Source: Planctomycetaceae bacterium (GTDB lineage Bacteria > Planctomycetota > Planctomycetia > Planctomycetales > Planctomycetaceae). From it: a stretch of 50,957 bases of DNA. Positions 1,911 through 50,957 of this stretch are shown in pieces. The notes below the pieces were generated by a model. That model did no database searches. It saw only the letters and a program-made list of their open reading frames with translations, and was not told the DNA's origin. Made by a program: the position numbers and the translations under genes. Within the stretch, counting starts at the first letter, position 1. Every line of letters starts with the position of its first letter. Location: NCBI GenBank assembly GCA_020850695.1, contig JADZEF010000166.1:1-50957 (forward strand). The letters run 5' to 3'.

Positions 1911-3448
1911 TCAGGCCAGCAATTCGGGAACGATCTGGCCGTCATGCACGAGGGAAACGGGGCGGCCCTGCCGGTCCGGCAGCGTGGTGTGCGGGTCGAT
2001 GCCGACGAGGTGATAGATGGTTGCCAGGATGTCTTTCGCCGTCAGGGGGCGGTCTGCCACGGTGCTGCCGATGGCGTCGGTCCGGCCGATGACCGTTCCC
2101 CGCTTCATGCCGGCGCCGGCGAAGAAGTTGGTGTAGGCCCGCCCCCAGTGACCGCGCCCTTCGCCCTGGAACTGCGGGGTGCGGCCCATTTCGTTCATCA
2201 CCAGGACCAGCGTGTCGTCGAGCATTCCGCGATCTTCGAGGTCGTGGATGAGCGCGGAGAACGCCAGATCGAGCCCCGGAAGAAGCTCGTTTTTGAGGCG
2301 GTTGTAGTGATCGACGTGCGTGTCCCAGCCGGCGTTGAGCTGGCCCCATTCGTCCCAGACGACAGTAACGAACCGGCATCCCGCCTCGACGAGGCGTCGC
2401 GCCTGGAGCGTCGACTGGCCGAAGAGGTTCATGCCGTACGACTCGCGGACGGTGGCCGGTTCGCGGTCGATGGCGAAGGCTTCGCGGACCGACTGGGAAT
2501 CGAGCAGAGAGAACGCGAGTTCTCGCTGGCGATCCATCGTGGCGGTGCGGCGGCTGATGTGCGTGGCGTCGGCCTCGCGGCGCCGGGCCTCGAACTGGTC
2601 GAGGAGCGAGCGGCGTCGATTGAGGCGGTCGACCGTGATGTCCCCCGTCAGTTCGGCCTCGGGAGCGATCAGGAAGCGGCAGTCCTTCACGCCCAGGTAA
2701 GGGTCGAAGATCGTCGCTGCGGGTCCGTTGGAACGACGCACCGCACTCGTCGTCGCCTCGCCGCGGAACTCGGTCCAGATCGGATCGAAGCGGCTTCCCA
2801 GAGACGAGCCGAAGGGCGGCGTATAGCGGGCCGCCGCGCGCCGCGTGCTCAACAGGAACGGCAACGCGAGGTTGTCGGGCACTGCTTCAGGGCGCTTCGG
2901 ACCGTTGCGCTGCTGGTCGAAATACTGGAAGACCGAGCCGAAGAAGGGCTGATGGTCCGGGTGGGTCGCCATTTCCTCGAGAGGCACGCTGCCGACGGGA
3001 GCGCCGGTCGTGGCGTACTGCATGCCGTGGAAATTCCACGGGTGCGTCAGCGAGCGAACGACCGCGGTGCGGTCCATGACGCGGGCCATCCGCGGCAGAT
3101 GCTCGCAGACATCGCAACCTGGCAACGACGAGGCAATGGGCATGAGGGTCCCGCGAATCTCCGCGGGCGCCTCGGGCTTCATGTCGCAGACTTCGAGATG
3201 ACTCGGACCACCGAAGAGATACAGCAGGATGACATTCTTCGCCGAGCCGAAGCCGGGGAGGCGGTGTCTTCGCGACGGGCGTCGGTGGTCGTTTCGCGAG
3301 ATGAACGCGAACGGGCCGGAGACGCCATTGTCGGCGGTGAGATCGCCCCAAGTCCCGCCCCCAGCGCGCCGAGTCCGCCTGCCAGCAACAGGTCGCGGCG
3401 GGTGACGCCATTGCACAATCGCTTGGGACTGCCGAGCACGCGCAACAT
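1911..3448 (-). CDS. DUF1501 family protein, frameshifted near the N-terminus
   Basis: DUF1501 proteins are common in planctomycetes, resemble sulfatase/alkaline-phosphatase-fold enzymes, and are probably exported by the Tat system; their activity is not established. The body in one frame (3262 down to 1911) has AKNVILLYLFGGPSHLEVCD, EHLPRMARVMDRTAVVRSLTH, NEMGRTPQFQGEGRGHWG and the C-terminal LVHDGQIVPELL. The expected family N-terminus MLRVLGSPKRLCNGVTRRDLLLAGG, with the twin arginine, is in a different frame starting at ATG 3448. The two frames join naturally if one base is restored in the GGGG run at 3255-3258 (CCCC on the coding strand), giving about 512 residues. So this is either a real one-base deletion or an assembly error. 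It lies 56 bp downstream of pheT. It has no adjacent DUF1549/DUF1553 partner, which often accompanies this family. Confidence 0.85.
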
Positions 3449-3504
3449 GCGTTTGTCCTGTCGATTCCGAAGGGGCCGACCTCAACGACCGGCGCTATCT
3501 TACG

Positions 3505-5532
3505 CTAGCGCAGCTGGGCCGCCAGCTTTTCCTGGCACGCCGTAATCACGGCCGCCTGCCAGCGGTCGACTTCTTCGGCGGTCAGTGTGCGGTCCGGAGA
3601 ACGATACCATGTGCGGATGATGTACGACTTCTTTCCTTCCGGGATCTGCTTGCCACGATACTGTCCCGCGAACGACGTTGCCTCGCACAGCGGACCGGCA
3701 GACGCACGCACCAGCGCTTCGAGGTCGTCCCAGGTCGTCGCTTCATCCAACACGAAGTTAAGGTCTCGTTCGATTCCGGGGAACTGCGGCAGCGGACGAG
3801 CCGATGGCACGAGGTCCGCCGATTCTTCCAGCACCCCCAGGTCGACCTCGGCCGCCGTCACCGCGTCGTGGAGATCGAGTGCGTCGGTCACCGATCTGTC
3901 CAACTCGCCGACATAGCCCCACGGCTTTCCGTTGAGCAGCACTTCCGCGCCGCGACCCGCCGCAAACTGTGACAGGTCCGAAGGACGGGCCGTGATGACG
4001 GCGGCCGGATTCACTGCCCGTGCCACCGTCTGAAGCAGTCCCTTCACTTCGAGGAACGACCGTCCGCTGACGAGTCCGATCACCAGCGGCTCCACTTCGC
4101 GTTCGGGCGCGCCGGGCTTCGCGTCGAGATAGACGCGGGCGATTTCGAAGAGCTGCGCGTTGAAAGTGCGGTGTTTTTCGTTTTCGCGGCGCGACACAAG
4201 AAGACTCGGGACCAGGCTCTGTCGCAGGACATCGCCGCGCCAGCCGTCATGGTCCAGGGGCAGCTTTGTCCGCTCGCCGCGCGGCTTGAACAGATCGTAG
4301 ACCGACTCGGGAACGAACGAGAACGTGATCGCCTCGAAGCATCCAGCGGCCGTCAGCGCGTTGCGCACGCGATCGGACACGCGGTCGCGGTGCGTTCGCT
4401 TGCTGAGCGTGAGCGGAACGGCGACGTCCTGCGGGATCTTTTCGTATCCGTGGACGCGTGCGATCTCTTCGATGAGGTCGGCCTCGCGATCCAGCTCGCG
4501 GCGCCACGACGGCGGAATGAACGTCGCCTGCTCGCTCGTGGCGGTGCCTTGCGGCGCCATTCCCAGTGTCTTAAGAATTCGCACCGCTTCTTCGGCTGGA
4601 ATATCAATGCCCAGGATGCGGCGGATCTGGTTGAACCGTAGCGTGACCGGATCGCGCGGCCCGGGGAGCGGCTCGCCGGTGATGACCGGTTCGTCGAGCA
4701 GCTCCCCGCCGGCGACCTTCAAAATCAGTTCGCAGCAGCGGCGGCTGGCCCATTCCATCTGCCGCACATCAATGCCGCGCTCGAAGCGGTACGACGACGG
4801 GCTGTGCAGCTTGAGGCGGCGGGCGGTGCTGCGGATCGAGCGCGGAGCGAACTCGGCGACTTCGACGAGCACGTTCTTCGTTCCGCTGCCGATCTCGGTG
4901 TCGAATCCCCCCATCACGCCGCCGATGGCGACGGGGCGATCGGAATCCGCGATGACGCACATGGACGGGTCGAGGGCGTATTGCTTCTGGTCGATGGCGG
5001 TGATCCGCTCTCCCGCCTTGCCGCGCCGCACGATGATCCGCTGCCCGTGCAGCTTGTCGAAGTCGAACGCGTGGAGCGGTTGGCCGCACTCCATCAGCAC
5101 GTAGTTCGTGACGTCGACGATGTTGTTGACCGATGGCTGGCCGATTGCTTCGAGCCGATCGCGGAGCCAGGCGGGGCTCGGGCCGACCTTCACGCCGCGA
5201 ATGACCCGTGCGATGTACCGCGGACAGATGTCGGGGCACTCGATGGCGACCGACGTGACCGAGGATGTTTTCGCCGCCGCCGGCGTCACTTCCGCCGCGG
5301 GAAGCTGGAAGGGCAGGCCGAACAGTGCGGCCCCTTCGCGGGCGATGCCGAGATGTCCGAGGCAGTCGGGCCGGTTGCTGGTGACTTCGATATCGATGCA
5401 GAAGTCGTTGCCGACGGGCGCGACGCCGTTGTCTCCCAGGTTCAACCCGCTCATCGTGAGCCGGTCGGCGAGCGCCTGCGGGGTGACGGAAAGCGAAACG
5501 TACTCGCGAAGCCAGTTCCAACTGACGTTCAT
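3505..5532 (-). CDS. pheT: Phenylalanine--tRNA ligase beta subunit
   Basis: This is the beta chain of the (alpha-beta)2 enzyme that charges tRNA-Phe; the beta chain holds the editing and tRNA-binding functions. Visible parts include the N-terminal [14 protein letters not shown], the B3/B4 editing region ([23 protein letters not shown]), the B5 region with [24 protein letters not shown], and the C-terminal anticodon-binding FDX-ACB domain ([16 protein letters not shown] to the end). Length is 675 residues against about 800 in most bacteria. The gap is at the N-terminus: the sequence passes straight from [15 protein letters not shown] to the [14 protein letters not shown] block, so the EMAP-like tRNA-binding insert is absent. 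The start is ATG 5532 by homology; the frame is open to 5607. pheS is not in the window. Confidence 0.95.
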
Positions 5533-42833: not shown

Positions 42834-44417
42834 GTGACGGATTCCTGCCCATTACCTCTCGAGCAAACGACGAATCCGCAGGTCGCGGACGAACAAGAAG
42901 TGGCGCGGCTCCTTCAGCGGTTGGGACGACGCTACTCTCTTGTCCTTGGCGCCGTGGCGTTACTGGTCCTGCTCGATCAGGCGGTTCTGCAGCCGATGCT
43001 GGTCCGGCTGGCCGGATACGCTCCCGTCATCAACCTGGCCGGTCGCCAGCGCATGCTGAGCCAGAAGATCGCCAAGACGGCATTGGCAATCGAACGCGGG
43101 GAATCCGCCGAGGCAGCTTCTCTGCACCGCGTTCTCCAGGAGGATCTCGCCGAGTGGCAGCGCGTCCATGATGGGCTTCGGCAGGGGGACGACGTGCTGG
43201 GACTTCCGGTCGCCAATTCCGAGGAGATCGTGGCGGGGTTCAAGGCCATGGAATCGAGCTACATCGGAATGCGCGATCCCGCACTGCGGATCGCCGGGGG
43301 GAACGCACCGCCCGTCGACACACGAGACGACCGCAGCGCCGTCAATAAGACCGTGACCTCCCTGCTGGTGGCCGAATCTCAGTATCTGGCGCAAATGGAT
43401 CGCATCGTCAAGCTCTTCGAGTCGCACGCCCGCGGCCAGGTGACGAGGCTGAGGATTCTCGGCCTCTCGATTACCGGTGCGGTACTGGCCCTGATGGCTG
43501 GGCTTGGCTCTCTGGTGGTCCGCCCGGCGTCGACCGTCATCCGTGAGCAACTCCAGGAACTCGCTTCCAGTCGGCGGTCGTTGAGTCTCGCTCATGAGCA
43601 GTCGGAAGCGCGGGTGGTCGAACGGACGCGACAATTGTCCGAAATGAATGACACCCTCCGACAGGAAATGCGCGACCGCCAACGGGCCGAAGAACAGGCG
43701 CGACAGACGCTCACGCAATTGGCCCATGTCGCGCGGGGGCACGCCGTGGGACAGCTGGCCACTGGTTTGGCTCACGAGCTCAATCAGCCTCTCGGAGCCA
43801 TCAGCAATTCTGCCGAGGCCGCAGAACTTGTCCTCAGACGCGAGGCCCCGGACATTCCTTCCGCAACGAAGGCGCTCCAGCGCATCCGCGATGCGGCATT
43901 GCGAGCGGGCGTGATCATTCGACGACTGAGAAACTTTCTTCGACCGGCGGCCCGAGTCCGGACAATCGTCGCGCTGAACTCTCTGGTCGCGGAAGTCGTC
44001 GAGTTCTGCGGCCCCGAATGCCGTCAGTGTGGCGTATCCGTGACTGTTGATTTGTCACCTGACAATCCATCCGTCGAGGTCGACCCCATTCAGATTCAAC
44101 AGGTGCTGGTCAACCTGCTTCAGAACGCGATGCAGGCGTTGCATGAGGTTCCAGCAAACGCACGTCTAGTGACCTTCCGCACATCATGCGTGGAAAACCT
44201 CGCCTTGGTGACGGTCGAAGATACTGGTCCGGGCTTCACTATGGATCCGACTGTGGCATTCGCCGTGTTGACGACCTCACGGCCTGACGGGCTGGGGATG
44301 GGACTGTCGATCAGCCGATCCATTGTTCATGATCACGCTGGTTCAATTCAGATCCACTCCTCGCCCGGGCGGGGTGCCTGCGTTCAGTTCACTCTGCCCT
44401 TTGTACGGACCTCATGA
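42834..44417 (+). CDS. Histidine kinase with NarX/PilJ-type sensor
   Basis: This 527-residue membrane sensor kinase has membrane segments at about 36-53 and 207-228 that enclose a periplasmic helical sensor. The first sensor helix, PVINLAGRQRMLSQKIAKTA (64-83), matches the P-box region of NarX/NarQ and the PilJ-type N-terminal module, which in NarX binds nitrate. A coiled coil (about 235-295) leads to HisKA with H314 in GLAHELNQPLGAISN, and HATPase_c with N431 (NLLQNAMQAL), DTGPGF (463-468) and GLGMGLSIS. The output half is FixL/NtrB-like, not NarX-like. The start is GTG 42834, preceded by AGGTG; its stop overlaps the next gene (ATGA). It is beside the nitrate operon, so nitrate or nitrite is the likely signal. 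Confidence 0.88.
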   Translation: MTDSCPLPLEQTTNPQVADEQEVARLLQRLGRRYSLVLGAVALLVLLDQAVLQPMLVRLAGYAPVINLAGRQRMLSQKIAKTALAIERGESAEAASLHRVLQEDLAEWQRVHDGLRQGDDVLGLPVANSEEIVAGFKAMESSYIGMRDPALRIAGGNAPPVDTRDDRSAVNKTVTSLLVAESQYLAQMDRIVKLFESHARGQVTRLRILGLSITGAVLALMAGLGSLVVRPASTVIREQLQELASSRRSLSLAHEQSEARVVERTRQLSEMNDTLRQEMRDRQRAEEQARQTLTQLAHVARGHAVGQLATGLAHELNQPLGAISNSAEAAELVLRREAPDIPSATKALQRIRDAALRAGVIIRRLRNFLRPAARVRTIVALNSLVAEVVEFCGPECRQCGVSVTVDLSPDNPSVEVDPIQIQQVLVNLLQNAMQALHEVPANARLVTFRTSCVENLALVTVEDTGPGFTMDPTVAFAVLTTSRPDGLGMGLSISRSIVHDHAGSIQIHSSPGRGACVQFTLPFVRTS

Positions 44418-45091
44418 CTCAAAGCACGCGTGCAATCACCTTGCCGCCGACGGTCTTCGTTGTTGACGATGACGACGACCTGCGCGAATCGCTCGTCCTC
44501 TTAATCGAAGCTCTCGGGTTTGCCGTGCGCAGTTTCGCGGACGGCGAAGAGTTCCGTCGGACCTATGACGGTATCACTCCAGGTTGCCTCCTCCTCGACG
44601 TCTGGCTGCCGACGCGCTCCGGAATCGAGCTTTACGAGCAGCTTCTTCAAGAGGGGAAGCGGCTGCCGGTGATCTTCATGACGGCGCACGCCGACGTCTC
44701 GACCGCCGGTGCCGCGATGAAGACGGGAGCCATTGAATTCCTGGAAAAACCGTTCGACCGCGTGATGCTGCTCGACCGAATACGAAAGGCGATTGAGCTG
44801 GACGAACAGTGGCGACAGCGCGAATCCGAGTTTCGGGCCCTCGATGTGCAGATCGCCGCGCTCACTTCAACAGATCGTGAAACGTTGGCACTCCTGACTC
44901 AGGGGCATTCCAATAAGAGCATCGCCGCACGACTTTTGATCTCAGAGCGAGCCGTGGAACTCCGCCGTTCACGCCTCATGCAGCGGTTGGGGGCGAAGAC
45001 GCTCGCCGAACTTCTTGACCTGACCATCACTCATCGCGTGCTGGACGAAGTCCGATTCCTCACTGGACAACCACTGGTCCCACGAAGATAG
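44414..45091 (+). CDS. FixJ-type response regulator
   Basis: This is a 225-residue two-domain regulator. The receiver domain (13-125) has the acid pocket VVDDDDD (16-22), phospho-acceptor D62 in LLLDVWLP, T90 and K112. The LuxR/FixJ helix-turn-helix (about 146-205) has TSTDRETLALLTQGHSNKSI and ERAVELRRSRLMQRLGAKTL. The ATG overlaps the kinase stop (ATGA), so the pair is translationally coupled. It most likely binds DNA after phosphorylation by the kinase and controls the divergent nitrate genes. Confidence 0.92.
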   Translation: MTQSTRAITLPPTVFVVDDDDDLRESLVLLIEALGFAVRSFADGEEFRRTYDGITPGCLLLDVWLPTRSGIELYEQLLQEGKRLPVIFMTAHADVSTAGAAMKTGAIEFLEKPFDRVMLLDRIRKAIELDEQWRQRESEFRALDVQIAALTSTDRETLALLTQGHSNKSIAARLLISERAVELRRSRLMQRLGAKTLAELLDLTITHRVLDEVRFLTGQPLVPRR

Positions 45092-45302: not shown

Positions 45303-45387
45303 GCCGGAGTGGCGGAACTGGCAGACGCGCCGGATTCAAAATCCGGTTCCCTTAACGGGAGTGTGGGTTCGACCCCCTCCTCCGGCA
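45303..45387 (+). tRNA. tRNA-Leu (anticodon CAA)
   Basis: The 85-base sequence folds with acceptor GCCGGAG/CTCCGGC, a D arm, anticodon stem CCGGA/TCCGG around the loop TTCAAAA (anticodon CAA), a long variable arm GTTCCCTTAACGGGAGT, and the T arm GTGGGTTCGACCCCC. The discriminator base is A at 45387, and CCA is not encoded. The next gene on the opposite strand ends inside this tRNA, and a putative integrative element follows its 3' end, so the tRNA is a likely integration site. Confidence 0.97.
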
Positions 45388-48362
45388 CTGAAGAAACCTA
45401 GGATTTTGAGGGCTTTTCTTAAGAATGAGGCGAGACAGATCGAGCCAGCCTGAGCCACATCGAGACCGCTGAAAACGGTGCCAAGGACTGAGCCAGATTT
45501 GATGATCTCGCTCCCTTCCCGGGCAATGCGGTTCGCGGCGAAGTCGTCGGGGCAGGCGGCCGCCGCTTCCTTCTCGACGGCGTACAGACGCGCAATGAAA
45601 GCCAGTGCGCACGCCGCTGCGGTCGGCTGCACCGTCCGCACGTCGAAGAACTTTCTCCGCGCATGAGCCCAGCAGAGGACCTGCATGACGCTGCGCGAGG
45701 CATAGAGGCCGTCGTAGCCCGAGAAGGCGTCGGCCTGAAGATAGCCCGTGTCATCCGCCAGGAATGTCGCCGGTCCGTCGCGCCTCCGGCTCGGCGTGAA
45801 GTCGTACACGAAGTAACGATGGTCGGCGTCGCCGGCGTAGAGCCAGAAGCGGCCCGTGCGGGTGTGGGGCAGCGTGCGGTCGAGCACCGGCACCGTCGTG
45901 TCGTCGGTGTGGATCACGCGCGACTGCCTCACCCGTCGAGCCATGAGTGACACAAGGGGCGCGAGCCGATCGGCCGCTTCGCGCAGCCAGCGGCACAGCG
46001 TCTGTCGGGGGATCTCCGCGCCGTGGCGGGCGAGGATGTCTTCCTGCCAGTAGCACGGCAGGTGCTCGCTGGCCTTGCTCACGAGAACCTGCGCGAGGAG
46101 CCCCGGGCCGGGCAACTCCTTCTCGATCGACCGGGGCGGCGGCGGGGCGATGGCGACATGCTCTTCGCACGCTGACAGGGCCGAGGATGGGCGCCATGCG
46201 ATGATCCGGTCGCCATCCGTTATCAGCACGGCGTGCTTCGACCAGCAGGTTGCCAGCGAATAGTCGCATTCGACCGGAACACCGTTGGTCACCCGTTCCA
46301 TGGATTTCCGGATGATCTTTACGACGTCTTCGACCACGCCTCGTGCGACGAAACCACCCTCGTCAGGCAACTCGACGAGGATCTCGTCATGGATGAATCC
46401 AACGACCCGGTAGCCCCGGAGAACGAGTTCGGTAAGAGCAAGCTTGGCACCGTCGGCAGCGAGGCCCTGAAACTGCGTGTTTCGCTCTGACGTATAGGTG
46501 ACACCACCCCGGATTCGGCCGGTCAATGTGGAAACGCGAGTAAAGAGCAATCGCTCCGCAGTCGTCCTGTTGCCGATTCGTCGGGCAAGAAGCGGCTGAA
46601 GGGTTCGATTGCGACATTCCCTTCCCAAAACCTCCCAGATCCGACCAACCAGCCTCGAGCGGTATGGGGTGCCGTCGGCCTTCTGAGGCGTACCGCCGAG
46701 GATTTTCTGTATCACCCGGGGAAACCAGGATGGACGGTCTCCGTCTCCGGAAAACGCACGCCAGAGATGGTCGACCGGGACTTGGAGATTTCGGGACAGC
46801 GAGTCGAATGTCGAATCGGCCAGAAACCGACTCAGTTCCGAGTAGATGTTGGTAATCAGCCGCGTCCGAAAAGTCTCTGCCTGTTGTTCGGTCATGGGGA
46901 CCTGGTAGGTGAGTTCGGCATAGCGGCTGAGCGAACGAGGGCCCATGCCGCCAGGCACTCCGAAATTCACGGGGTTCGCGAGCTGCCGCCACTTTTTGTA
47001 CTTGTCCGGATCCGATTCCCGGAGCTTCATGTACTCATCGTATGACTTGCCCAGCAACAGTGCGGCCGTGTAGCAGTGGGGATCGATTCCTTCCCTGATG
47101 ACGTCGGCCAGCGCCGAGGTGCCAAATCTCTTGAGACAGACTGCGGCCAGCGCGACGAGTTCGATGAACCGGTAGTCGACGGCAAGGAGCAGATGCCCTG
47201 ACGATGGAACGATGATCTGTCGGAATCTTTCGTCGCGGGGAACCTGTTGAAGGTTTGGTGACGAGCAGCCGGTCCGCCCGGTGCGTTCCAACACGGTGTA
47301 TCGTGGACGGATCGTCCGCTGATCCAGCTTCGGCATGAACTGCTGGAGTTTCACAACCTTCTGGTATGCGAACCAATCGCTGAGAAAAGGGTGCCGGTCC
47401 TCCAGCTTTCTCCACGCGTCCCGCGATCGGGCAATGTGTCCCTTTTCTGTCAGGGGCACTTGGATCGCTTCATTCGAATGCGGTGTGATTTCACGCACGG
47501 CTCCGGTCAGCAAGCGGTTCAGTTCGCGTGTGGAGATGCTGATCCCTCCCGTCGGGGTTCGCTTGAACTGGCCGCGACGGTCGAGGGGAAACAGTGTGGG
47601 ATATTGGGATCGGAGTTTCGTGCCCCGACGTTCGATCTCCTCGGCGACTTCGTTGCGAGTGGCCGCGTAACGATCGCTGTCGGTGGCGATCCCATTCCGG
47701 CCGATTTGTGCCAGTGCGATCGAGGCTCCGACCTGGAGCGTTTCGGTCAGGAAGCCGTATGGACCGGCCTCGATGTCTCGCTCTGTCAGGAGCCGTTCGG
47801 CAACCCGACGCATCTCGGCATGGGAGCGGGCGGTGGCGATCGCGTCCTTGATTGGATATCGGAGAAATCCGGGATCGGCGGTCGACCAGTCCGAATCCAG
47901 CAGTTCGCCGTACCGGAGACGGAACGGGTCGTCTTTGTCGAGCGCGAGACCGACGTGCGAGCGGGCGACAGTTCCCAGGTCGCGGGGCACCAGAGCAGTC
48001 CGTTCGCTGGAATCCGCCAGGCGAATCAACTGGTCAAGTATCATCGTGTCATGCATGCGATGACTACGGGCCGCCGACTCCCAAATCCGACAGGCGGTGG
48101 CGGCCTGCCGATCTCTGAGGAATCGGTGAACGACCCAAAAGTCGAAGGCCCCATTGTGGAAGACGAATCGGGCCTTCCTGTGGTGACAGAGGAAACCGGC
48201 CAGATCGTCTGGATGGATGAGCCGATTGGTCCGACCATCGCTCACCGAGACCACGGCCAGCCGAGGAACCGAAGATCCTTCGAAGGCCTCCGTCTCGCAG
48301 TCGAAAGCCAAATACCCGCTATAGATCGTTCCCTCAGACGGGCAATATCGACGCGCAGCCAC
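45336..48362 (-). CDS. Family-A DNA polymerase fused in frame to an IS66 transposase fragment
   Basis: A single open frame of 1008 codons. Residues about 1-727 are a phage-type DNA polymerase I with a DEDD proofreading domain (AFDCETEAF, D21/E23; HNGAFDF, D74; KDAIATARSHAE, D173) and palm motifs: RTGRTGCSSPNLQ (360-372), motif A DYRFIEL (D396, E401), motif B RQLANPVNFGVPGGMG (459-474), motif C FIHDE (D659, E660). In motif B the usual lysine is N463. From about 733 the frame becomes an IS66 transposase piece, and the last 18 residues are the antisense of tRNA-Leu. GTG 48362 is an unconvincing start. A strong AGGAGT plus ATG lies at 48528, but in another frame that closes at 48334; the polymerase frame itself is open back to 48525. 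One frameshift there would join them. Confidence 0.8.
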   Translation of the reverse strand: MAARRYCPSEGTIYSGYLAFDCETEAFEGSSVPRLAVVSVSDGRTNRLIHPDDLAGFLCHHRKARFVFHNGAFDFWVVHRFLRDRQAATACRIWESAARSHRMHDTMILDQLIRLADSSERTALVPRDLGTVARSHVGLALDKDDPFRLRYGELLDSDWSTADPGFLRYPIKDAIATARSHAEMRRVAERLLTERDIEAGPYGFLTETLQVGASIALAQIGRNGIATDSDRYAATRNEVAEEIERRGTKLRSQYPTLFPLDRRGQFKRTPTGGISISTRELNRLLTGAVREITPHSNEAIQVPLTEKGHIARSRDAWRKLEDRHPFLSDWFAYQKVVKLQQFMPKLDQRTIRPRYTVLERTGRTGCSSPNLQQVPRDERFRQIIVPSSGHLLLAVDYRFIELVALAAVCLKRFGTSALADVIREGIDPHCYTAALLLGKSYDEYMKLRESDPDKYKKWRQLANPVNFGVPGGMGPRSLSRYAELTYQVPMTEQQAETFRTRLITNIYSELSRFLADSTFDSLSRNLQVPVDHLWRAFSGDGDRPSWFPRVIQKILGGTPQKADGTPYRSRLVGRIWEVLGRECRNRTLQPLLARRIGNRTTAERLLFTRVSTLTGRIRGGVTYTSERNTQFQGLAADGAKLALTELVLRGYRVVGFIHDEILVELPDEGGFVARGVVEDVVKIIRKSMERVTNGVPVECDYSLATCWSKHAVLITDGDRIIAWRPSSALSACEEHVAIAPPPPRSIEKELPGPGLLAQVLVSKASEHLPCYWQEDILARHGAEIPRQTLCRWLREAADRLAPLVSLMARRVRQSRVIHTDDTTVPVLDRTLPHTRTGRFWLYAGDADHRYFVYDFTPSRRRDGPATFLADDTGYLQADAFSGYDGLYASRSVMQVLCWAHARRKFFDVRTVQPTAAACALAFIARLYAVEKEAAAACPDDFAANRIAREGSEIIKSGSVLGTVFSGLDVAQAGSICLASFLRKALKILGFFSAGGGGRTHTPVKGTGF
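45512..46166 (-). mobile_element. IS66 family transposase fragment
   Basis: Residues 733-950 of the chimeric frame match IS66 TnpC: APPPPRSIEKELPGPGLLAQ, HLPCYWQEDILARHGAEIPR, VIHTDDTTVPVLDRTLPHTR, TGYLQADAFSGYDGLY, VLCWAHARRKFFDVR and ARLYAVEKEAAA. The N-terminal third of the transposase and its C-terminal end are missing, and no tnpA or tnpB or terminal inverted repeats are seen. This is a dead remnant, joined in frame to the polymerase. Confidence 0.9.
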
Positions 48363-48606
48363 GACTTCGCCGCCCCACGAAAAGGCGAAAGGCAGTGCGT
48401 CGGTTGGAATACCGACATCTACAGAGCCGGCAAGTTGCCACAGGTGCTGAAGAATCGCTCCCTTCTCGCGGCCAATCCGCTTCCAGTCGTTCTCGGTCGT
48501 TATCGATTTGTAGAATCGTGCTGGTCATGAAATGACTCCTGTTCTGTTTGCGCGGGGCAGGGAATTGAGCACCCGACGGTGACACGTCGCGGTGCTTTTC
48601 CTTTGG

Positions 48607-48822
48607 CTAGCGGTCGGTGTCAGCCAGTGTCGTACGACCTCCGCAGCCGCCTTGGGACAGCCACCGATCGAGCCGTTCGCGGTGGTATCGGACGACCCGG
48701 CCGCGACGAACGAACGGCACGTAGCGAGCCGACGTCCAGTTCCGCAGGGTGCCGAGGGCGATGCCGAGGTAGGCGGCCGCCTGTACGGCATTTATCCAAG
48801 GGGATCCCCCGTTCGGGGTCAT
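48607..48822 (-). CDS. Excisionase-type helix-turn-helix protein
   Basis: This 71-residue protein has the MerR/excisionase HTH layout: INAVQAAAYLGIALGTLRNW as the helix-turn-helix, then VPFVRRGRVVRYHRERLDRWL as the wing. Such proteins act as excisionases or small repressors of integrated elements. The start at ATG 48822 has GGAG eight bases upstream, and it overlaps the stop of the preceding small gene (ATGA). The frame is open far upstream (to 49128) but only as a shadow. It lies 78 bp upstream of the probable polymerase start. Confidence 0.85.
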   Translation of the reverse strand: MTPNGGSPWINAVQAAAYLGIALGTLRNWTSARYVPFVRRGRVVRYHRERLDRWLSQGGCGGRTTLADTDR

Positions 48823-49061
48823 TTCCGTTCTCCAGACATCGCGACGGCCTCGGCCGAAGCGTTGGCACCGCTCACTTCCAGCGAGGGTGCGAAGAAGTGC
48901 ATAACGATTTCGTCGAGGTTGGACCTTGAGAAATCGAACCGCATCGAGCCGTCGAGACGCGGCCGATGCACCTTCCCCGTGCGGATCGCCCAGTGGATTC
49001 TGCCCTCGCTGAGGTCGATGCCGCGCAGCCGGAGTTCGGCTCGCAGCTCTGAGAACGTCAT
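48819..49061 (-). CDS. Small predicted DNA-binding protein
   Basis: This 80-residue protein starts MTFSELRAELRLRGIDLSEG, then RIHWAIRTGKVHRPRLDGSM and RFDFSRSNLDEIVMHF. The pattern resembles a MerR-like winged helix in which the second helix and wing bind DNA. ATG 49061 has GAGG six bases upstream. Its stop overlaps the excisionase-type ATG (ATGA), so the two are made together; a cooperating regulator pair is likely. Family membership is uncertain. Confidence 0.7.
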   Translation of the reverse strand: MTFSELRAELRLRGIDLSEGRIHWAIRTGKVHRPRLDGSMRFDFSRSNLDEIVMHFFAPSLEVSGANASAEAVAMSGERK

Positions 49062-49083
49062 GTGTGGCCTCGACCGTGAAATG

Positions 49084-49114
49084 AAAAAGGGGAACAGCGA
49101 ATCCGCTGCTCCCC
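49084..49114 (-). terminator. Intrinsic terminator
   Basis: On the minus strand GGGGAGCAGCG pairs with CGCTGTTCCCC (one mismatch) around a GATT loop and is followed directly by TTTTT. It lies 83 bp after the stop at 49197 and 23 bp before the start at 49061. It would end the integrase/unknown-gene transcript before the HTH pair. Confidence 0.9.
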
Positions 49115-49196
49115 TCATCATGTGACACCGTGGTGGCGTCGTCTCCGTCGAACTTTCCGGAAGTTCCGCTGCCGGAAAAACCGGAATTCCGGACTG

Positions 49197-50006
49197 CTAC
49201 GCCCGCGATTTGCGACGTTTATTGGGCAGGACCGTGTACACCCCCTCGCCACGAAGGACGTCGAGAACTTCCTGCAGTTGCTCATTTCCCATCGAAATTC
49301 TGGCCTCTTGCAGCCTCCTCAAAATGGTCTTTCGTGGAAGCAGTTTCCCCTCCTCGCCGGCGTCCCCAATGATCTTCCTGACGGCCTCAATTTTCGCAGA
49401 GGCGGGACCGGACTCCCTCGCGACGGCGGACGGCGTTCTGCTTCTCTTTGACGCCCTCCGAAAATCTTCATGGCTGGCCAGTGCCTCCCGAAAATCACGG
49501 TCGGGAATCTCCTCACGGAACAGCTCATGCCATTGCCGTTTGAGGTCTTCGACCGAAAGGCTGCCGGAATCGAGGCGGGATTGAAATTGTCGCAGGTCTC
49601 GGTGCCGTTCAAGCCCCTCTCTCACAGGAAAGGCGAGGTGTCGGAGTTGATATCGTTGCCTCTCGAGGAGGTCACCGTACGCGCAGAAGGTGTGGAACGC
49701 GATGGGCAGGAACTTGCCATCGTGATACGCCCATTCCTGGAGCCGCTGGAGGGCTACACAGAAATCCGCGGCAACATCAAGAGCGTCCGCCGCCGTCGAG
49801 ATAATGCGATTGCGAACGGGTCCGCGGAGAACTCTTGGCGTAACAACGAAGACATCGGGTGGCGTATTGGCTCGCAGTGCCGCTGTCACAGGATCAAGTG
49901 GTGGACTGCTCATCGCCCTGCCGGCAGGCCGCGCCACCTTCTGGCGGGGCGCAGGCTTCGGTGCGGCATTCGGTGCCGGCCTCGCCTGAGTCTTTCGCAT
50001 GACCAT
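49197..50006 (-). CDS. Hypothetical protein of the mobile element
   Basis: This 269-residue protein is not recognised. The N-terminal 40 residues are rich in alanine, proline and basic residues. The middle is helical and charged (LQRLQEWAYHDGKFLPIAF, YGDLLERQRYQLRHLAF, VEDLKRQWHELFREEIPDRD). The C-terminal 70 residues (KIEAVRKIIGDAGEEGKLLP, KTILRRLQEARISMGNEQL, VLDVLRGEGVYTVLPNKRRK) look like a winged-helix DNA-binding domain by pattern. AGGA precedes ATG 50006, and the gene overlaps the integrase end by 113 bp; an internal ATG at 49913 would reduce the overlap to 20 bp. It is followed by the terminator. Confidence 0.7.
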   Translation of the reverse strand: MVMRKTQARPAPNAAPKPAPRQKVARPAGRAMSSPPLDPVTAALRANTPPDVFVVTPRVLRGPVRNRIISTAADALDVAADFCVALQRLQEWAYHDGKFLPIAFHTFCAYGDLLERQRYQLRHLAFPVREGLERHRDLRQFQSRLDSGSLSVEDLKRQWHELFREEIPDRDFREALASHEDFRRASKRSRTPSAVARESGPASAKIEAVRKIIGDAGEEGKLLPRKTILRRLQEARISMGNEQLQEVLDVLRGEGVYTVLPNKRRKSRA

Positions 50007-50957
50007 GTTGGACTTCCTTTGCGTTCGTCTTTTCGATTGCGTCCCGCTTTGTTTCCAGACCGAGATGAGTGTAGCGCTTCGTCATCGCGAGCGTCGTGTG
50101 GCCCAGGATCTCCTGAACGAGCAGCGGGTTGACTCCCTGCTCTTGGGCCCGACTGGAGAACAGGTGCCGGAGATCGTGCGTGCGAGTGAATTGAGGACAG
50201 CCGATCGCCCGCGTGATCCGACAGAATTCGAGTCGGACTTGCTTCACAGTCACCTGCCCCATGGACCGGCTGAATCGGGTGATTGCCCGACGTTCTTCGG
50301 CGGCAGTCGCCTCGGGATGATTCGCCCGAAATTCGGCCGCCAATTGCTCCAGGTGACGGCGGAATGCCTGGCCGCTGTCGAATCTCTGGGCCAGTGCTTT
50401 CTCACCCGCGGCGAACGGGCGGTCAAGGAACACGAAACCAGCACTTCTTGAACCGATCAGTCGGCCGAACACCTCCTTCATGGTTGTGGTGAGTGGGAGC
50501 TGACGACGGCGTGCGGTCTTGACACGCCAGTTGAGTTCCGGCTTTGACCGGATCTGGATTGTGCCAGCGATGAGGTCGACGTCCTCAATGAGAAGGTGAG
50601 TCAGTTCGCCGACCCGCAGACCGTATGTCGCGAGGGTCTGAAAAATCCTGCGCTGCCAGTCGTCGCATTCCGTGAAGAACGCCCTCTCCTGCTCAGGGCT
50701 GAAGATCGCCTGTCCTTCGTCTTCTTCCCGCGGATCTCGCAGACCGTCGATCGGAAAGCTGCTGAACGGGTTGGTGGCGTACGGAGGGAGCATGCGACGC
50801 CTGTTTGCCCAATGGAAGGCTGTCCGACAGGTGCTGAGAATGAACCGAATGCCGCCGACCTTGTAAGCGTCCCGCTTCCCGCTCCGTTCCGCGTCCGGGT
50901 CTGCTGCCGGAGCCAGCGGACGAAGTCCTCAACTGTCCGCTCCGAAACGGCATCAAC
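49894..50957 (-). CDS. Tyrosine recombinase (integrase), frameshifted and partial
   Basis: The catalytic domain is in one frame: TLATYGLRVGELTHL (catalytic R), RTHDLRHLF (H-x-x-R), EILGHTTLAMTKRYTHL (H and the tyrosine nucleophile). In the same frame upstream, the core-binding part reads RDAYKVGGIRFILSTCRTAF and FHWANRRRMLPPYATNPF. Going further back, this frame meets a stop, while the expected N-terminal piece VDAVSERTVEDFVRWLRQQT is in another frame that runs off the window. The switch lies near 50875-50910 and needs one base restored. The start of the gene is outside the window. It would catalyse site-specific integration and excision of the element. Confidence 0.88.

Follow-up and report, generated by a model that had tools for sequence, protein, structure and literature searches.

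Results

Gene content of the segment

The window analysed here is a 50,957-nucleotide stretch from a Planctomycetaceae bacterium (Planctomycetia; GCA_020850695.1, contig JADZEF010000166.1, positions 1-50,957), and our subject is its segment at 45,303-50,957, where a tRNA-Leu gene faces the genes of a putative integrative element with its own family-A DNA polymerase (PolA). The window is exactly one contig (C168; L-, G- and C-numbers are our labels for loci, genomes and contigs) of an 8.6-Mb draft genome, and its right end, inside the integrase gene, is an assembly end. The segment is present in the draft genome as a single copy and contains the following features:

45303..45388, plus strand: tRNA-Leu (CAA), intact, predicted by ARAGORN, with its 3' end facing the element
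45525..46196, minus strand: IS66-family transposase relic, truncated at both ends and fused in frame behind the polymerase (Pfam DDE_Tnp_IS66, 7.9e-56; PHROG 688 transposase, 9e-63)
46185..48362, minus strand: family-A DNA polymerase with a 3'-5' exonuclease domain, full length, ~726 amino acids (Pfam, PHROGs, alignment)
48363..48606, minus strand: 244 nucleotides without a recognisable gene; a primase-helicase occupies this place in 29 of 33 relatives
48607..48822, minus strand: helix-turn-helix (HTH) protein of the HTH_17 family, 71 amino acids, excisionase or regulator type (Pfam HTH_17, 1.4e-9)
48819..49061, minus strand: small protein, 80 amino acids from an inner ATG, overlapping the HTH_17 gene through ATGA
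49197..49913, minus strand: protein X, 238 amino acids from the ATG at 49913 (MSSPPLDP...), overlapping the integrase stop by 20 nucleotides
49894..50957, minus strand: tyrosine integrase, N-terminal part lost at the contig end (Pfam Phage_integrase, 5.9e-22)

An initial annotation, made from the sequence alone, had recognised an intact tRNA-Leu, an integrase and a proofreading-type family-A polymerase here, and all three are borne out by the matches listed above and the polymerase motifs described below. It had also placed the genes behind the tRNA in an order beginning with the integrase; the genes are indeed present, but all lie on the minus strand, directed toward tRNA-Leu in the order integrase, X, 80-amino-acid protein, HTH_17 gene and polymerase, such that the polymerase is nearest to the tRNA and the integrase farthest from it. 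The two small proteins, annotated as a coupled HTH pair, are coupled through the stop of one and the ATG of the other (ATGA, 48819-48822), yet an HTH domain is recognised only in the 71-residue protein and is unsupported by Pfam or PHROGs in its 80-residue neighbour. Nor did the winged-HTH-like end ascribed to X, whose likely ATG lies within the integrase reading frame, hold up, its one Pfam match being sub-threshold (MCM4_WHD, 16.6 bits, cut-off 24.4). X was also considered as a conserved family protein, and rejected as such, with weak partial matches at best across 397 genomes of the class. No capsid, terminase or portal gene is seen in the segment, up to the contig end.

The closest whole relative is L080, to which the integrase (71%, over the fragment present there), the HTH_17 protein (68%) and the polymerase (46%) are each identical in part, and which carries a primase between the HTH gene and the polymerase. 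The HTH_17 protein is also 60% identical to its counterpart in L033, at the matching place in both relatives, and the integrase is 37% identical to that of L096. The integrase lies on the same strand as the polymerase and within ~10 kb of it, and apparently changes frame near 50870, in the last ~90 nucleotides before the contig end.

The polymerase and its lesions

The open reading frame at 45336-48362 encodes a 1008-residue composite, of which ~726 residues are polymerase; the last ~280 codons are the in-frame IS66 relic (DDE_Tnp_IS66, residues 750-946), coming directly behind the polymerase, followed by read-through of the tRNA. The polymerase part matches DNA_pol_A in Pfam (3.2e-24) and the DNA polymerases of PHROG 17 (7e-50 over residues 16-709), and retains the exonuclease residues (DxE, HNxxFD and YxxxD) as well as the HDE motif. 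It belongs to a clade of exonuclease-bearing family-A polymerases, grouping with those of L033, L078 and L080 (tree support 0.999; 46-49% identity) far from the host PolI. Alone among 33 polymerases, however, it has asparagine instead of the motif-B lysine at residue 463 (RQLANPVNFG compared with RQxAKxxNFG), a lysine whose counterpart in E. coli Pol I, K758, contacts the incoming nucleotide. Partial copies related to the IS66 relic occur elsewhere in the same genome, on contigs C411 and C212 (L002-L004 and L006-L007), and the relic in the window has ~80 extra nucleotides compared with the C411 copy.

A polymerase family with variable primase-helicase partners

Searching with an alignment of six polymerases, we detected the family (E up to 1e-30) in 44 of the 397 class genomes, including 34 near-full-length copies in 29 genomes, and across the phylum in 6 of 392 genomes at the stricter cut-off of 1e-60; a contig scan with the window polymerase returned one relative only. 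In 29 of 33 loci the polymerase is preceded, 2-3 kb upstream and on its own strand, by a primase-helicase gene, and about 20 have a same-strand tyrosine integrase nearby (that of L080 being a fragment). The primase-helicases are of several kinds (DUF3854+DUF3987, DUF3854+DUF5906, Prim-Pol+DUF3987, Prim-Pol+AAA_25 and one kind without a Pfam match), such that the polymerase is the constant part of the family and the type of primase-helicase varies.

The initial annotation was right that the segment lacks a primase gene, but relatives do carry one at this place. Directly upstream of the window polymerase there is no primase-helicase, only 244 nucleotides without residual primase similarity, and the L033 primase found no match in the draft genome in a search run without a positive control. 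Since 29 of 33 loci carry the gene at this spot, we read its absence as a loss in this copy. Two other polymerases, those of L101 (13004-15241) and L104 (14662-16815), have lost several exonuclease residues and kept the polymerase motifs, and L101 is also without a recognised primase; these are either other decaying copies or proofreading-free variants.

Three relatives with tRNA 3'-end repeats at both ends

The initial annotation had proposed looking for the same gene order beside tRNA genes in other genomes. In three relatives, a tRNA 3' end is repeated exactly at the far end of the element: L086, from the same family as the window genome (tRNA-Met, 49-bp repeat, 9,986 bp), L085 (tRNA-Val, 19-bp repeat, 9,558 bp) and L087 (tRNA-Arg, 16-bp repeat, 10,453 bp), a given 16-mer having a chance expectation of about 1e-5 per 20 kb. 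These bounded relatives carry an integrase, an HTH protein, a primase-helicase and PolA. In six more (L029, L077, L078, L079, L094 and L098) the integrase lies directly behind a tRNA; altogether, integrase and tRNA are adjacent in each of the nine relatives whose element has a tRNA. In L085 and L087 a further integrase just past the second repeat suggests tandem accretion.

For the loci at tRNA-Pro, -Gly, -Arg and -Lys, no far repeat was found in the DNA examined with 2-3 mismatches allowed, and of the empty site in G138 corresponding to the copy in G007 we found the left flank, on C135, but no contiguous right flank. Relatives also reside in two tRNA-Val islands, in G068 and G118, which hold three and four attachment (att) copies over 69 and 112 kb, respectively. 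At the tRNA-Val(CAC) of L098 (G068:C1, 3.972-4.041 Mb) there are two further 3'-end copies over ~69 kb, and at that of L076 (4888-4960 and downstream; G118:C3, 2.944-3.057 Mb) three over ~112 kb; both are large accretion islands at a single tRNA and start with a polymerase element.

tRNA-Leu is a doubtful attachment site

The proposal that the element is inserted at tRNA-Leu fared less well. The window integrase lies more than 4.5 kb from this tRNA, at the opposite end of the gene array, and the link is doubtful because the integrase adjoins the tRNA in nine relatives. The far-end repeat that had been expected to the right did not materialise either: the contig ends with the window, and no second copy of the 23-nucleotide tRNA-Leu 3' end exists in the draft genome at up to 2 mismatches. 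Polymerase and gene order assign the window copy to the L080/L078 type, in which the integrase comes first; in L078 a tRNA-Gly lies just upstream of it. By this rule the true tRNA of the window copy would lie past the contig end and tRNA-Leu may not be the site; it would instead be a neighbour brought near by a deletion around the IS66 copy.

tRNA-Leu(CAA) is nonetheless a used site in the family of the host, since in G400 (L229, G400:C163) an unrelated integrase reads into it and in G427 (L231, G427:C84), of the same genus, the same neighbour genes surround it with no integrase, an occupied and empty pair. Since integrase genes in bounded relatives run on into the tRNA, we also looked for an integrase tail between the IS66 relic and tRNA-Leu; the candidates were tRNA-antisense and chance matches only and were rejected.

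Phage and transfer genes around the relatives

Among the genes of the bounded L085, L087 and L086, which were listed for all three and annotated with Pfam for L085 and for the L087 primase, we recognised neither capsid or terminase genes nor any for a relaxase or secretion. Likewise, for 81 neighbour proteins, nearly all from relatives, the best 25 PHROG families include no terminase, portal or capsid and the best 25 Pfam families no relaxase or type IV secretion component, while 49 proteins from four viral loci gave terminase in three of these loci. Structural and transfer genes are thus rare around the relatives, lists of the best 25 families being evidence of rarity and not proof of absence.

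In the tree, the element polymerases fall into two groups that intermingle with viral polymerases and are well separated from host PolI. The nearest viral polymerases share 34-37% identity with them, and several lie beside homologous primase-helicase genes; some viral contigs with this pair also carry terminase genes. Because the polymerases interleave in the tree and their primase-helicase neighbours are homologous, the replication cassette is probably common to the elements and tailed phages. One locus with a polymerase element, L099, has nearby (2549-5060) an AAA ATPase (PHROG 8638) and a neighbour gene in common with the viral contig L148, which raises the possibility that this locus is a prophage and not a small element.

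Discussion

In this study, we sought to explain a planctomycete gene array in which an integrase and a family-A polymerase lie near a tRNA gene. We conclude, with a probability of roughly 0.7, that the segment represents a degenerate copy of a small integrative element with its own genes for a tyrosine integrase, an HTH regulator, a primase-helicase and a proofreading PolA. The gene content, the family, the conserved order, the att repeats of relatives and the lesions of the window copy are seen in the sequences themselves. In view of the loss of the primase-helicase, the change of the catalytic lysine and the IS66 relic directly behind the polymerase, the replication module of this copy is probably dead. 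The suggestion in the initial annotation of a distinct integrative family is supported for the family, through ~10-kb relatives with tRNA 3'-end repeats, the polymerase and no recognised structural genes, but not, as worded, for this copy, which is a decayed example of it.

Several observations weigh against this conclusion. The ends of the window element are not defined, its far end lying past the contig, and the integrase frameshift, within 90 nucleotides of the contig end, might have arisen during assembly. All 726 codons of the polymerase form an open frame, which implies either that decay set in recently or that the enzyme tolerates the lysine change. A convincing homologue of X at the same place in relatives was not found, and the family is known from sequence alone, from which excision and replication are predicted.

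The segment could alternatively be the early region of a degraded ordinary prophage whose capsid and packaging genes lie past the contig or have been deleted. The contig stops inside the integrase, element and viral polymerases interleave, and related polymerases with primase-helicase neighbours occur on terminase-bearing viral contigs, all of which this explanation would accommodate. We nevertheless consider it unlikely, given that the three relatives with both ends defined measure only 9.6-10.5 kb without recognised structural genes, and that the 25 best PHROG families for the 81 proteins lacked terminase, portal and capsid, whereas the 49 viral proteins gave terminase in three of four loci. 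Less probable still is an intact minimal element that has dispensed with its own primase, uses that of the host and has tRNA-Leu as its true attachment site. The intact tRNA with its 3' end facing the genes, the open polymerase frame and the use of tRNA-Leu(CAA) in G400, compared with G427, would all fit; against this stand the motif-B lysine lost in the window copy only, the IS66 relic between polymerase and tRNA, the distance of more than 4.5 kb to an integrase that is directly adjacent to the tRNA in nine relatives, the lack of a second att copy in the draft genome at up to 2 mismatches, and the failure to find an integrase tail beside tRNA-Leu.

The tRNA-Val islands of G118 and G068, which are large (69-112 kb) and have several att copies, together with plasmid polymerases of this kind (21-32% identity), might also suggest that the segment is left over from a larger element, integrative conjugative or mobilizable, whose relaxase and transfer genes were lost or lie past the contig. 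No relaxase or type IV secretion family was seen, however, either in the 10-kb relatives with defined ends or in the best Pfam families for the 81 neighbours, and we regard such an origin as very improbable.

If the segment is a decayed small element, its intact relatives allow a mechanism to be proposed. Insertion at a tRNA 3' end and release as a circle are most likely the work of the integrase. Control of excision and of the replication operon most likely falls to the HTH protein, and the primase-helicase and PolA would then replicate the free circle without recourse to host DnaG, DnaB and Pol III. Excision as a circle and self-replication of intact members are predicted because of their homology with tyrosine-integrase elements. 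Transfer between cells could plausibly occur through packaging by a helper phage, and a possible reason for carrying a polymerase would be that the element need not rely on the host replisome while a phage infects the cell or once it has been transferred.

Phage satellites (PICI, P4 and PICMI) resemble the family in their size of ~10 kb, integrase, small HTH protein, primase-helicase and lack of structural genes, and the three bounded relatives, at 9.6-10.5 kb, combine integrase and replication genes without recognised structural genes, as would be expected of a satellite of ~10-15 kb. Satellites generally rely on a helper or host polymerase, whereas the family here has its own, and no helper phage is known. 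The tailed phages of IMG/VR (L126, L138 and L148) have homologous polymerases at that 34-37% identity and primase-helicase neighbours, but terminase genes on their contigs, in contrast to the bounded elements.

Cryptic integrated elements with archaeo-eukaryotic primases have been described (Kazlauskas et al. 2018, PMC5862659), and they share att repeats mostly at tRNA genes, a primase-helicase and the lack of recognised phage or conjugation genes. A family-A polymerase or Planctomycetes are not mentioned in the parts of that paper searched; here PolA with a 3'-5' exonuclease is constant and the primase-helicase type variable. Pipolins (PMC7385651) are likewise integrative, with a tyrosine recombinase, a tRNA site and their own DNA polymerase, but are defined by a primer-independent family-B polymerase, whereas the window polymerase is of family A and relatives have a separate primase. 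TV-Pol and PolA-SSB elements (Iyer et al. 2008, PMC2579912; Rice 2023, PMC10061031) combine a PolA-superfamily polymerase with a D5-like or related helicase and a recombinase, and planctomycete TV-Pol members have been reported (Iyer et al. 2008, PMC2579912). TV-Pols, however, are minimal PolA-type enzymes without nuclease domains, proposed to prime, unlike the window polymerase with its intact exonuclease motifs and the relatives with their separate primase. Some PolA-SSB enzymes keep the exonuclease, but the PolA-SSB elements are from Bacillota, have mostly large serine recombinases and use the polymerase in place of a primase, in contrast to the separate primase-helicase beside the polymerase here.

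In the open-access literature searched, we found no description of such elements in Planctomycetes, no paper on the combination of integrase, primase-helicase and PolA in a tRNA-bounded element, and none tying a phage satellite to a family-A polymerase; the element family, common in the class, looks undescribed. Tentatively, and with slightly more doubt than conviction, we propose that it constitutes distinct self-replicating integrative elements with a proofreading family-A polymerase and an interchangeable primase-helicase, a PolA counterpart of pipolins spread over much of the class and moving at ~10 kb by an unknown route. Few kinds of element bring along a replicative polymerase (pipolins, casposons and Polintons with PolB, and TV-Pol elements). 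A compact family with a proofreading PolA and an exchangeable primase-helicase, common to tailed phages and to elements in which no capsid gene is recognised, would offer a concrete system for studying the exchange of replication machinery between phages and capsid-less elements, and the reasons for which an element of only 10 kb requires a polymerase. The chief value of the window copy is that it led to this family and exemplifies its decay.

Directly upstream of tRNA-Leu, at 42834-45091 of the window, lies a pair of sensor kinase and response regulator genes, apparently FixL/FixJ-like by sequence, which is probably host flank.

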